Source of the DNA: Aureobasidium sp. EXF-3400
Taxonomy: Eukaryota > Ascomycota > Dothideomycetes > Dothideales > Saccotheciaceae
Assembly (NCBI GenBank): GCA_024195585.1
Contig: SWBL01000242.1
Location: 1-64,000 of the forward strand
Direction of reading: 5' to 3'
Length of the DNA: 64,000 nucleotides
Translations under genes and position numbers: made by a program
In this document: positions 118-14,939 of the stretch, one piece after another
How positions within the stretch are numbered: the first letter of the stretch is position 1
Layout: each line of letters begins with the position of its first letter
The notes under the pieces: generated by a model
The model's database searches: none
What the model saw: only the letters and a program-made list of their open reading frames with translations
What the model was told of the DNA's origin: nothing

Positions 118-3100
118 CAGTCTGAGCTGTTCGCCTGGCTTGATGTGGTCGGTCACGAAGTTTTCGTTTTGGAGTACAAGGAAATGATGATAACGATGTC
201 GTCAAGGTCGAATGAGGATCTGAAATATTCGAGTGAAACACTAAAGTACCAGTCTTGTTCGAGTAGCATGGAAGCAAAGTCCAAGGCTCTTTAGCAACAT
301 GCCTCGTCTTGACAATGTGCTCTGTATATGATGAAGCGAAAGCGGGCAGGTTGATGACACGCTTCATCTCAATGTTCCCAACCCAACAAGCTAGAAGAAG
401 GTCGTCCTTTTCTTGCTTAAACTCCTCGTTAGGACCGGTTGAAGAGTCGCCATGACTTCTGGTATTGGTCTCGTGCAGATTTTACCGAGTCTCCTACTTG
501 CAGCCGCTCGCCACAAAGTGGACTGTAACGCTATCGTCTGACCGGTCACAGAAGCGATGATCGTGGAGCGTCTTCCTGGTCTAGTTGTTACGTATGGCAC
601 GGACAAGGTGTATCGCGCAATAGCGAACCTGGTCTATATAAGGAGGCAGCGAAAGAGAACTCGCTGCAGAGGAACGTCATGTTGCTTAGCAGTGGGCCGT
701 AGAGTCACAGATATTGCTAGCAACCCGGCGGAGAAAGTATGCTAAAGCAAGGATGCTATATCCGTAGATCACCAAAAGGGCCGCGTGCAATCAGCAGATC
801 AATTGGATATATATATGTTGTTGCAGGTCGATGATTGTGGTTAGAGAGAAAAGAGGACCAGTCATGGCAGAGCTGCTAGAGCGGCCAGAGGTGTAAGAGA
901 ATGTTCGCCGTGTCGAAGTGGTTTAAGGCCCAACGAGTCGATATGCATAGACAAGGTTCACGCTGTGCGAATCTCGACTTGTTACTGAGTGGAAATCCGG
1001 ACATAGGCAAGTATATATTGCTTGCAAGTGAGGTGAGTATGGCTGGCAATCAAGCTCAAGAGACTTCAGTCGATGGAACATAAGCCTGAGAAGTCCTTGC
1101 TGCCATACGCACGGATCGCGGTATCGGACCAGGAGGTGCTCCAGCGATGAAGAGAACAAGGCATCCATGATGAATTTGTATACATCGGCAGCCATTGGTG
1201 AACGCTTCTGGGATATAGCGGTAGAGTGGTAAAAAGGATAAACAAAAAATAGGGCAAGCTGTGTCAGCAGAAAGCTACAGGCTGCGGTAGAGCAAGTTGA
1301 GCAACCGATGCAAGTGTCTTGCTGCTTTCGCACATTTTGATCAAGAAGATCAAACCCATCTGACATATAAGGAAGGAGATCATCTGGAGCGATACGCTTA
1401 AGCACCTCTTATTCGATCCTATGCAAAAAGTTTGTATAAGCCTGACAACCAGGATCGACAGTGTGACTGGATCGTTGTTGTATACCGGCAAGATCCTAGT
1501 GACTCTGCTTCCAAACGTTCTGATGATGAATTCGAGTGGCTCCTCATCCTGAGATTCTGACAGGAAGTGATGAGTTGGCGCTGGCTCGAATATCAAGGTA
1601 ACCAGTTTGAAAGGTTGGATGTCGATAGCTTCGACATTATATACTGTCGAGGACCTGGGTAGGCAGAGTTTTGCTATGCCAAGCCGTCGGGTGACTATAT
1701 AAATGACAAGCCATAGAGGGAAGCTTGTCCAAGAGAGTTTGAAGGTGAAGCCTGCACCCAAAACAGGTTATATAGAAGGAGAGTGCTGATAAAACAGAGT
1801 TGTGGCTCAGTTTCAAGTGCGGTCAAGGGTTGGCCAATCCATACTGCTGAGCAACCAGGGCCCACGCAGATCCGTGAAGTATCTCTGGGCAGATTCTTTT
1901 GTGGCAGTGGTATGAAGCTCCTTGCAAGTGAGTCGGATGGCACCAGATCATCAGTAAATTGTTGTCGGCGCAGATCATGGTCGGAATTCAACCTGACAGG
2001 AAGAGCAAGCGCAGGCCTCTGACTTTCCTCGTATATAGGATTAAGCTCGATGCTTGCAGATCTCGACCAGTGCCTGCAGACTCTTTGTCGACATCATCAC
2101 AAACAGTTCCTGAAAGTGATGGAGTATATAGTGGATGCGCATATTCGGCGCTACAAGAGTGCATGCTTATCGGCCCCTCGGTTTCTTGCTCTTTCTCGGT
2201 GTGGTGGAGCGCGGGCCCCTTGAAGCTCTTGTGATCTTGGTGTAAGGTTGAGCTTTTGGTCCTCTCTTGATGGGTAGTTGATTGACGAGCGAGCGAAATC
2301 TGTGTGTACGGCTATAACTGAGGTTGCCATTAAGAAAGCAATGCTGAGAAACGATAGGTGTTAGCGTGTGGTATTGGACGGCTGGAGCTGACGAACCTAT
2401 TTCTTGTAGAAATGAGACTGTGAGGTGCAAAGAAGCCGAAAAGTATAAGAGACGACGAGTGTGAAAGAAGGTGATAGAACCATCTTCCCCAAGCTCTGAC
2501 CAGAGATGTTAGAGTTTGACATCACTCAAGAGCAACTGTATATAGACGGTTCAGATCAGGACAGAAGCCCGCGTTCCATGAAGAGGATGAGGCCTGACCT
2601 TACGCTCTTGAAGCGTTTGAAGCGCTAAGCTTGCACAAAGAGATGATGTCGCCTGGTGTTGTATCCATTTCCCATCTCATGCAGGGGCCCGGTGCCCCTC
2701 ATTTCGCCTTGAGCATCGCTCTCGGAAACACTCCGTTCTTTCTCATTGCCAGAGGTCATCAAAATAATCATCTTTACTCTGTATCCAGCTCGTGAATCAA
2801 GGGTCAGTAATTCTGATCGCACTCGATGATATGTAATGCTAACCGCGGAATCACGCTCTTGGCGGGCTTTCTATTGACCGTAACCTTCCATTAGTCTTCG
2901 ATAGCATGAAGTAGGGACCGGTATTGGAAAAGAGATAGAGAGTCAGTCATGAATATCCTGCACGAAGGAAGCGCTGACTTGAACCCATGAATTCACAGGC
3001 TCTGGCACCATATGCAAGTCGCACTCAACAGGGACCTGTACACCGCTTGATATCCAAACCCGCCACGCTCTGCAGGATCTCTCTGTAGGCAATTCAATGA

Positions 3101-4626: not shown

Positions 4627-4631
4627 AAAAA
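4627..4631 (-). terminator. Pol III T5 terminator of tRNA-Pro
   Basis: A run of five T on the minus strand begins a few bases after the tRNA discriminator base, the expected RNA polymerase III stop. A T4 run follows at 4622-4625. Confidence 0.8.
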
Positions 4632-4634
4632 GAT

Positions 4635-4790
4635 GGGCCCAACCGGGATTTGAACCCGGGACCTGTCACATTGGCGCTTGCTGAGCAAGCAGGTTTACCC
4701 GAAGCAACAATCATACTGCCAATTTGGGTTAGTCTGAACAGTCGATCGACCGAATTGAAAATAACAACTTACCGACTAGACCATTGGGCC
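4635..4790 (-). tRNA. tRNA-Pro(CGG) with a canonical intron and an extra insert in the D-loop
   Basis: Read on the minus strand, the acceptor GGCCCAA (4790-4784) pairs perfectly with TTGGGCC (4642-4636), followed by C73 at 4635. The T-arm CCGGG-TTCAAAT-CCCGG is perfect. The anticodon arm is GTTGC-TTCGGGT-GTGAC with anticodon CGG at 4701-4699. A 27-nt intron (4697-4671) sits at the standard place, one base after the anticodon. The D-arm begins GGTCTAGTCG but is then interrupted by 57 nt (4772-4716) before TATGATTG resumes. Without that insert the D-arm is GGTCTAGTCG-TATGATTG, identical to the second copy near 14.85 kb. The A box stays intact across the junction because the insert starts with G, and the B box GGTTCAAATCC is perfect. 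Confidence 0.85.
4716..4772 (-). other. Spliceosomal-type intron inside the D-loop of tRNA-Pro
   Basis: This 57-nt insert starts GTAAGTTG, carries GACTAAC (branch A about 12 nt before the 3' end) and ends TTGGCAG. Donor, branch site, acceptor and length are all those of a typical ascomycete pre-mRNA intron. Eukaryotic nuclear tRNA introns are normally confined to the position after nucleotide 37, where tRNA endonuclease removes them, so one here would need the spliceosome or another enzyme. That it is spliced is inference from the motifs and from the exact restoration of the paralogue's D-arm. Confidence 0.75.
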
Positions 4791-14615: not shown

Positions 14616-14845
14616 TCGAAATACGGCAACTCAACAATCGTGCCCAAGGTAAAGCACATCTGCATGATTTTTGGTGGCACAAGGACAAACCTGAAGCTTT
14701 ATAGTTTGTTGATATGAAATCTATCGAATCTGCTTTTATCTCTATTAGACTTGGTTACTGACGATTTTGGGACGAAGCCGGCCCACCAGAATGTAGAAAA
14801 AGGAGGAAAAAATAAAAATGCAAACCCTTCAACCCATCAAAGTAG

Positions 14846-14939
14846 GGTCTAGTCGTATGATTGTTGCTTCGGGTGAAACCTGCTTGCTTAAGCAAGTGCC
14901 AAATGTGACAGGTCCCGGGTTCAAATCCCGGTTGGGCCC
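14846..14939 (+). tRNA. tRNA-Pro(CGG), second copy, 5' acceptor strand missing or displaced
   Basis: From GGTCTAGTCGTATGATTG onward this is a good tRNA-Pro(CGG). The anticodon CGG is at 14870-14872, a 30-nt canonical intron at 14874-14903, the T-arm is perfect, and TTGGGCC plus C73 end at 14939. The D-arm is uninterrupted. However, the bases just upstream (CAAAGTAG) do not pair with TTGGGCC, so a mature acceptor stem cannot form from contiguous sequence. Either this is a 5'-truncated pseudogene, or the first eight bases lie upstream beyond an intron ending in TAG at 14845. A candidate 5' piece, TGCCCAAG followed by GTAAAG, lies at 14641-14648. Confidence 0.7.

Follow-up and report, generated by a model that had tools for sequence, protein, structure and literature searches.

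Spliceosomal-type introns in tRNA-Pro(CGG) genes of the fungus Aureobasidium sp. EXF-3400

The D-loop of a tRNA-Pro(CGG) gene of Aureobasidium sp. EXF-3400 (gene A) is interrupted by a 57-nt insert, which is most probably a genuine spliceosomal intron of the U2 type, residing in a tRNA gene that works or was working until recently. Judging from the nucleotide sequences, it appears to belong to a limited group of such introns, which occur in each of the three complete tRNA-Pro(CGG) genes identified in this genome, in one tRNA-Val(UAC) gene and probably in one tRNA-Ala(CGC) gene.

Results

Gene A and its two inserts

Gene A resides in the 64,000-nt stretch of DNA analysed here, referred to as the window. 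The initial annotation of this region described a minus-strand tRNA-Pro(CGG) gene with a 27-nt intron at position 37/38 and a 57-nt insert in the D-loop, and direct reading of the sequence confirms this structure (Table 1). The motifs GTAAGT, GACTAAC and GGCAG, pointed out in the same annotation, were read directly in the insert. Its description of the stems as perfect holds for the acceptor and T stems, but the anticodon stem contains two wobble pairs. The Rfam model recognized gene A despite the 84 nt of inserts. ARAGORN run on the window without introns missed the gene; with introns allowed it named it tRNA-Trp, and when both inserts were removed it called a tRNA-Pro(cgg).

The A box of gene A was assigned by its consensus, and the T5 run downstream of the gene is likely a Pol III terminator. 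In the excerpt of PMC3978253, the A box is placed in the D-arm. When the unspliced gene A RNA was folded, the D-stem paired with the insert in a helix (z of -2.24 for the whole molecule), a result on which we do not build.

With respect to the surroundings of gene A, the window starts at the first base of the contig, and positions 1-120 open inside a short tandem repeat with a CAGGCAGTGTGAG unit. A bestrophin-like protein with 91% identity to an Aureobasidium pullulans protein is encoded nearby, and a scan of viral contigs with a protein from the neighbourhood of gene A revealed no relative.

Table 1. Location and main characteristics of the tRNA and U6 genes and their parts
Feature	Position	Strand	Characteristics
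tRNA-Pro(CGG) gene A, 3 exons and 2 introns	4635..4790	-	Rfam RF00005, 31.5 bits; joined exons form a cloverleaf
Gene A, spliceosomal-type intron, 57 nt, D-loop nt 19/20	4716..4772	-	GTAAGT / ACTAAC / CAG; same site as the L072 D-loop intron
Gene A, canonical tRNA intron, 27 nt, 37/38	4671..4697	-	equivalents in copy B, L072 and L075
Gene A, A box TGGTCTAGTCGG	4772..4783	-	final base coincides with the start of the insert
Gene A, B box GGTTCAAATCC	4646..4656	-	sequence reading
Gene A, T5 run	4627..4631	-	sequence reading
tRNA-Pro(CGG) copy B, lacking the D-loop insert, likely pseudogene	14845..14938	+	7 nt missing near the 5' end
Copy B, canonical-type intron, 30 nt	14874..14903	+	diverged from the 27-nt intron of gene A
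Copy B, upstream element GCAAACCCTTCAACCCAT	14820..14837	+	common to Val(UAC) L087 and Ala(CGC) L094
tRNA-Pro(CGG) gene C (L072)	1352-1573		51-nt D-loop intron GTATGT / GCTAAC / CAG at the exact site of gene A; 68-nt 26/27 intron GTAAGT / TCTAAC / CAG; canonical 37/38 intron
tRNA-Pro(CGG) gene D (L075)	1389-1569		82-nt 26/27 intron GTGAGT / ACTAAC / CAG; canonical intron
tRNA-Val(UAC) (L087)			52-nt D-loop insert GTAAGT / ACTAAC / AAG; identity by sequence reading; ARAGORN calls nothing
tRNA-Ala(cgc) by ARAGORN (L094)			D-loop insert GTAAGC / GCTAAC / GAG; one acceptor mismatch
U6 (L011)	1501-1660	+	one intron after GGATG
U6 (L012)	about 1656-1447	-	introns after GGATG and after CATTAG

A second copy lacking the insert

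The window also contains copy B, at 14.85 kb, which had been presented as a second tRNA-Pro whose D-arm equals that of gene A once the insert is deleted. The D-arm is indeed identical and free of the insert, but the copy is not intact, as its 5' end lacks 7 nt that correspond to positions 2-8 (or to an equivalent placement). The exon letters common to copy B and gene A are identical. The upstream element abuts the G-GGTCTAG of copy B directly; since this element, known from in front of two other tRNA genes, runs into G-GGTCTAG, copy B is best described as truncated at its 5' end. Copy B provides the empty site for the D-loop insert, yet one within a probable pseudogene. Its origin as a retrocopy of a spliced RNA is possible, if unsupported.

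A 53-nt GT..AG stretch upstream of copy B (14793-14845) was considered as an additional intron and rejected, as it has no branch site and the shared upstream element abuts the truncated tRNA. The element GCAAACCCTTNNANCCAT occurs directly upstream of copy B, L087 and L094, i.e. at three distinct places among 110 loci; it may be an upstream element of Pol III genes that the three have in common, or the trace of a common origin.

Further interrupted tRNA-Pro(CGG) genes

The genome (53.4 Mb in 717 contigs; one assembly) was searched by pattern, with reading of the best candidates. A pattern joining the TTCGGG anticodon loop to a B box, which would miss genes with a longer 37/38 intron or a different B box, gave 10 matches genome-wide vs 4 in the reversed control. 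Four of the ten are tRNA-Pro(CGG), namely gene A, the truncated copy B, gene C (L072) and gene D (L075); the six others were read as not tRNA-Pro. The complete genes are thus three in number and are located on three contigs (C242, C1 and C92). A DNA query with the whole gene, in a search that skips common words, retrieved only A and B and no near-identical copies of the window insert; a narrow pattern likewise led only to A and B.

L072 and L075 were found by their anticodon and B box, and splice signals played no part in the search. Both of these complete genes contain spliceosomal-type introns, inserted at nt 26/27 and, in L072, also at nt 19/20 as in gene A, and every tRNA-Pro(CGG) gene has a separate intron at 37/38. 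All four inserts of A, C and D run from GT to AG with a donor near GTRWGT. A branch site of the form RCTRAY, 6-36 nt before the acceptor, is present in each of them with the exception of the 26/27 intron of gene C, where T precedes CTAAC; the distance from CTAAC to the 3' end is 12 nt in A, 9 and 11 nt in C, and 9 nt in D. T-runs are present 3' of all three genes, whose A and B boxes lie outside the introns or just at their edge. A run of more than four T occurs in none of the four introns, which, given how few letters they comprise, is simply compatible with read-through by Pol III. In donor, branch site and acceptor, these introns agree with the consensus that PMC5832005 gives for the U3 introns of fungi.

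Several expectations of the initial annotation can be related to these genes. Its proposal of a spliceosomal-type intron in a Pol III-transcribed tRNA gene gains support from the sequences of L072 and L075 and from the U6 introns described below; the conservation of the site with a changed intron sequence, which it looked for among related fungi, is found within this genome in L072; and the count of other tRNA-Pro(CGG) genes that it called for gave two complete genes, both interrupted, with no intact uninterrupted gene found, i.e. no instance of what it had named as grounds for refutation.

The Rfam tRNA model gave no match to L072 and L075 up to E = 1, and standard annotation may report tRNA-Pro(CGG) as absent from such genomes. 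Within the 26/27 intron of L075, a stretch that by eye resembles part of the 5' exon and D-arm of L075 itself can be made out, and at a distance of about 150 bp the gene is partially repeated in inverted orientation (1782-1713, minus strand; 70 bp with 97% identity). The L075 duplicates hint at local duplication as a process creating introns.

Other tRNA species

Our survey of other tRNAs covered CTAAC and CTGAC branch sites within a limited distance of the B box. Among 13 matches for tRNA-Pro(AGG) there are 11 complete genes, in which canonical introns are the only type present. Two more Pro(AGG) pieces, met with in the CTAAC search described below, are cut off by contig ends. A typed tRNA-Pro(AGG) consensus used as a DNA query gave no match, presumably because common words are skipped. 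Three of the six matches for tRNA-Pro(UGG) are genes of this type, and none contains a D-loop insert. The GGTCTAGT..B box pattern yielded 74 matches (1 in the reversed control), among which copy B is the sole proline tRNA, since Pro(AGG) and Pro(UGG) genes have other D-arms and gene A is too long for the permitted gap.

CTAAC located 35-95 nt before a B box is not enriched genome-wide (23 matches vs 31 in the reversed control), but beyond A, C and D this search revealed two tRNAs with a D-loop insert, L087 and L094. Since the query itself contained CTAAC, their independent support is confined to the donor, the acceptor and the boundary. Their acceptors (AAG and GAG, not YAG) fit the U2-type consensus less well, and the insert of L094 is the weakest candidate for a spliceosomal-type intron in a tRNA gene. 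A second Val(UAC) gene (L108) has a contiguous D-arm, as has a third Val(UAC)-like gene (L109); the search for this species gave 8 matches, three of which were read as Val(UAC), the others being judged mostly on letters. Another Ala(CGC) gene, L077, was read as lacking the insert. The introns of L087 and L094, which reside in different tRNAs, resemble each other in their 3' terminal letters, CTAACATCYTCTGA(A)G.

The analogous CTGAC..B-box search gave 32 matches vs 25 in the reversed control; no D-loop intron was recognized among the 32, which were judged on their letters, three of them in full. The intron signature was absent from all 41 control tRNA genes, a set in which most genes have a canonical intron (L054 has none) and which includes the 11 Pro(AGG) genes and 30 genes from a pattern limiting the B-box distance to 86 nt, which disfavours doubly interrupted genes. 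Three tRNA-like repeats of the form GACCAGCGG..AGATGGTGTAG (L111, L112 and G000:C455:13940-14047) have an unusual layout before the T-arm.

Interrupted U6 genes

Among the 47 best of 3461 candidates scored, at least two U6 matches exceeded the cut-off, the third candidate reaching 19.1 bits; an uninterrupted U6 would be expected to score above the two interrupted matches. Both genes match U6 until GGATG, where GTGAGT...CTAAC...CAG follows, and then continue with ACACATGC. L012 has a second intron (GTACGT...CTAAC...TAG) at a point where L011 is contiguous (CATTAG-TC). The U6 introns are 54-56 nt long, with 10-11 nt after CTAAC, and the genes are accompanied by TATA-like boxes and a T7 run. U6 is required for all splicing. 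Because this RNA is itself interrupted in both genes found, the spliceosome of this fungus very probably processes Pol III transcripts, as far as the sequences tell and unless an uninterrupted U6 gene was missed.

Spliced products and the nature of the inserts

After removal of the introns, A, C and D have 60 of 63 cloverleaf cells paired (95.2%), the non-pairing cells being position 13-22 in all three genes. The acceptor, anticodon and T stems are 100% paired, and decay of the kind expected of a pseudogene, visible in copy B, is not seen in them. Four pairs are changed on both sides (3 in the acceptor stem and 1 in the anticodon stem), in comparison with 40-52% pairing and zero both-side changes in slid controls. 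In this test of three sequences, whose shuffles ignore relatedness, 8 of 500 shuffles did as well as the real sequences (22 when further pair types are counted). Exon identities among A, C and D are 61, 57 and 60 of 71. Since cloverleaf pairing and both-side changes persist in these diverged spliced sequences, the exons appear to evolve as tRNA. The interiors of the D-loop introns of A and L072 show no similarity to one another; among 36 intron pairs compared, four exceeded z 2, with the two U6 introns at one site at the top (4.9).

These data bear on the view that the inserts are introns, or intron-like DNA, in redundant tRNA-Pro(CGG) genes that are now pseudogenes, CCG being read by other proline tRNAs. 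The truncation of copy B and the intact appearance of the 11 Pro(AGG) and 3 Pro(UGG) genes fit such a scenario. G18 is near-universal in tRNAs, and spliced gene A, like copy B, has C at this position, so that gene A may be weak or decaying. However, A, C and D keep fully paired stems, compensatory changes, 3' T-runs and splice signals at exact boundaries, and decay would not preserve GT, CTAAC and CAG across four inserts of differing sequence. We therefore regard this explanation as improbable and favour introns of working, or recently working, genes.

The inserts might also be of the ectopic kind that Cyanidioschyzon and nucleomorphs possess, with the tRNA splicing endonuclease as the cutting enzyme, and D-loop or D-arm introns are indeed described for the red alga and for nucleomorphs in the excerpts of PMC3978253 and PMC4090602. 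The four inserts form no consistent bulge-helix-bulge, with 1, 0, 2 and 3 of 4 central pairs (3 in gene A if the motif is slid by one base), which is a weak test, as the canonical introns of the same genes score 0-2; the endonuclease has no need of GT, CTAAC and CAG. We consider a role of the endonuclease in excising the inserts very unlikely. Self-splicing introns do not fit either: at Rfam gathering scores the window shows only tRNA matches and no group I or group II intron core, and 51-82 nt is too short for an intron of either group.

It could further be argued that the intron belongs to a Pol II transcript, i.e. a host mRNA or long RNA in which the tRNA is a passenger. This is hardly probable, as in each of the three genes, all on different contigs, the intron boundaries delimit precisely the exons of a tRNA, the A box, B box and T-run have been preserved, and the U6 genes are arranged comparably.

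The strict pattern GTAAGT-N20..50-CTAAC-N3..20-YAG has a single match in the 64-kb window, the insert of gene A; shuffled windows contain 0.19 matches on average. The loose signature (GTRNGT, CTRAY and YAG within 45-80 nt) at given ends occurs in 22 of 4,603,500 start/length combinations on both strands. A chance occurrence of motif-like letters within a random insertion can be dismissed as practically negligible: although 13 of 100 shuffled windows contain the strict pattern at one place or another, here the tRNA structure fixes the boundaries, and a frequency of about 5 per million for one insert would have to recur in four inserts of three genes.

Discussion

Taking the U2-type intron as the preferred interpretation, we consider it reasonably probable that tRNA genes of this fungal lineage have been colonized by spliceosomal introns, preferentially at 19/20 in the D-loop and at 26/27, that production of the entire isoacceptor class tRNA-Pro(CGG) requires the spliceosome and, after it, the tRNA endonuclease (L072 having three introns of two kinds), that CCG decoding is tied in this way to the spliceosome, and that intron gain reaches Pol III genes beyond the spliceosome's own RNA. 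In the proposed pathway, Pol III would transcribe tRNA-Pro(CGG) from intact A and B boxes flanking the introns, and the nuclear spliceosome would release the introns of the D-loop and of site 26/27 in lariat form. Only after this step would the D-arm and anticodon arm fold, and the endonuclease and ligase would then take out the 37/38 intron. The yeast tRNA splicing endonuclease measures its cut site from the folded tRNA. The spliced tRNA-Pro(CGG) would finally decode CCG. This codon can probably also be read by tRNA-Pro(UGG) via wobble, and therefore the tRNA-Pro(CGG) genes need not be essential.

Tani and Ohshima in 1989 and Canzler et al. in 2016 reportedly described spliceosomal introns in fungal U6 snRNA genes. 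These resemble the tRNA introns in being short, of the GT-AG type, with CTAAC branch sites and located in a Pol III gene, and they are present in both U6 genes found here. The host differs: U6 is a component of the spliceosome, whereas tRNA is not, and tRNA genes have their promoters inside the gene. According to PMC5832005, U3 and U6 are the sole small structured RNAs in which introns are known to be frequent. The U3 snoRNA introns of fungi have the same consensus, and intron-containing and intron-free copies coexist in one genome, but they are found almost exclusively in the 5' stem-loop of U3 and their host is not a tRNA (PMC5832005). The combination of intron type and polymerase class is thus known from U6, and the host RNA class, tRNA, is new as far as we have found: among the matches listed from the open-licence literature, none describes a tRNA gene with a spliceosomal intron.

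The ectopic introns of Cyanidioschyzon merolae and of nucleomorphs are similar in that an additional intron interrupts the D-arm of a nuclear-type tRNA (excerpts of PMC3978253 and PMC4090602). Cutting of the D-loop introns of C. merolae is attributed to the tRNA endonuclease acting at BHB motifs (excerpt of PMC3978253); the tRNA inserts of the Guillardia nucleomorph are 3-24 nt long, many without a clear BHB, and the excerpted text of PMC4090602 holds no word starting with "spliceosom". In contrast to both, the Aureobasidium inserts are 51-82 nt long and have spliceosomal signals. The canonical eukaryotic intron at 37/38, also present in A, B, C and D, differs from the inserts in position, signals and enzyme. 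Introner elements represent a recent spread of short introns with many near-identical copies; the whole-gene query, which is not an exhaustive one, retrieved no near-identical copies of the insert of gene A.

The tRNAscan-SE 2.0 paper (PMC8450103) allows a eukaryotic tRNA gene no more than a single intron, whereas L072 would carry three. Genes of this type may well be overlooked, the Rfam model being blind to both L072 and L075. The occurrence of intron-containing and intron-free pairs within one genome (L087/L108, and the two U6 genes) makes the gain and loss of introns in Pol III genes testable.

The introns of U6 have been proposed to arise when the spliceosome reverse-splices an intron into its own RNA component. 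If the interpretation presented here is true, intron gain in Pol III genes would not be explicable only in this manner. The spliceosome of this fungus would handle tRNA transcripts, and two splicing systems would act on one RNA.
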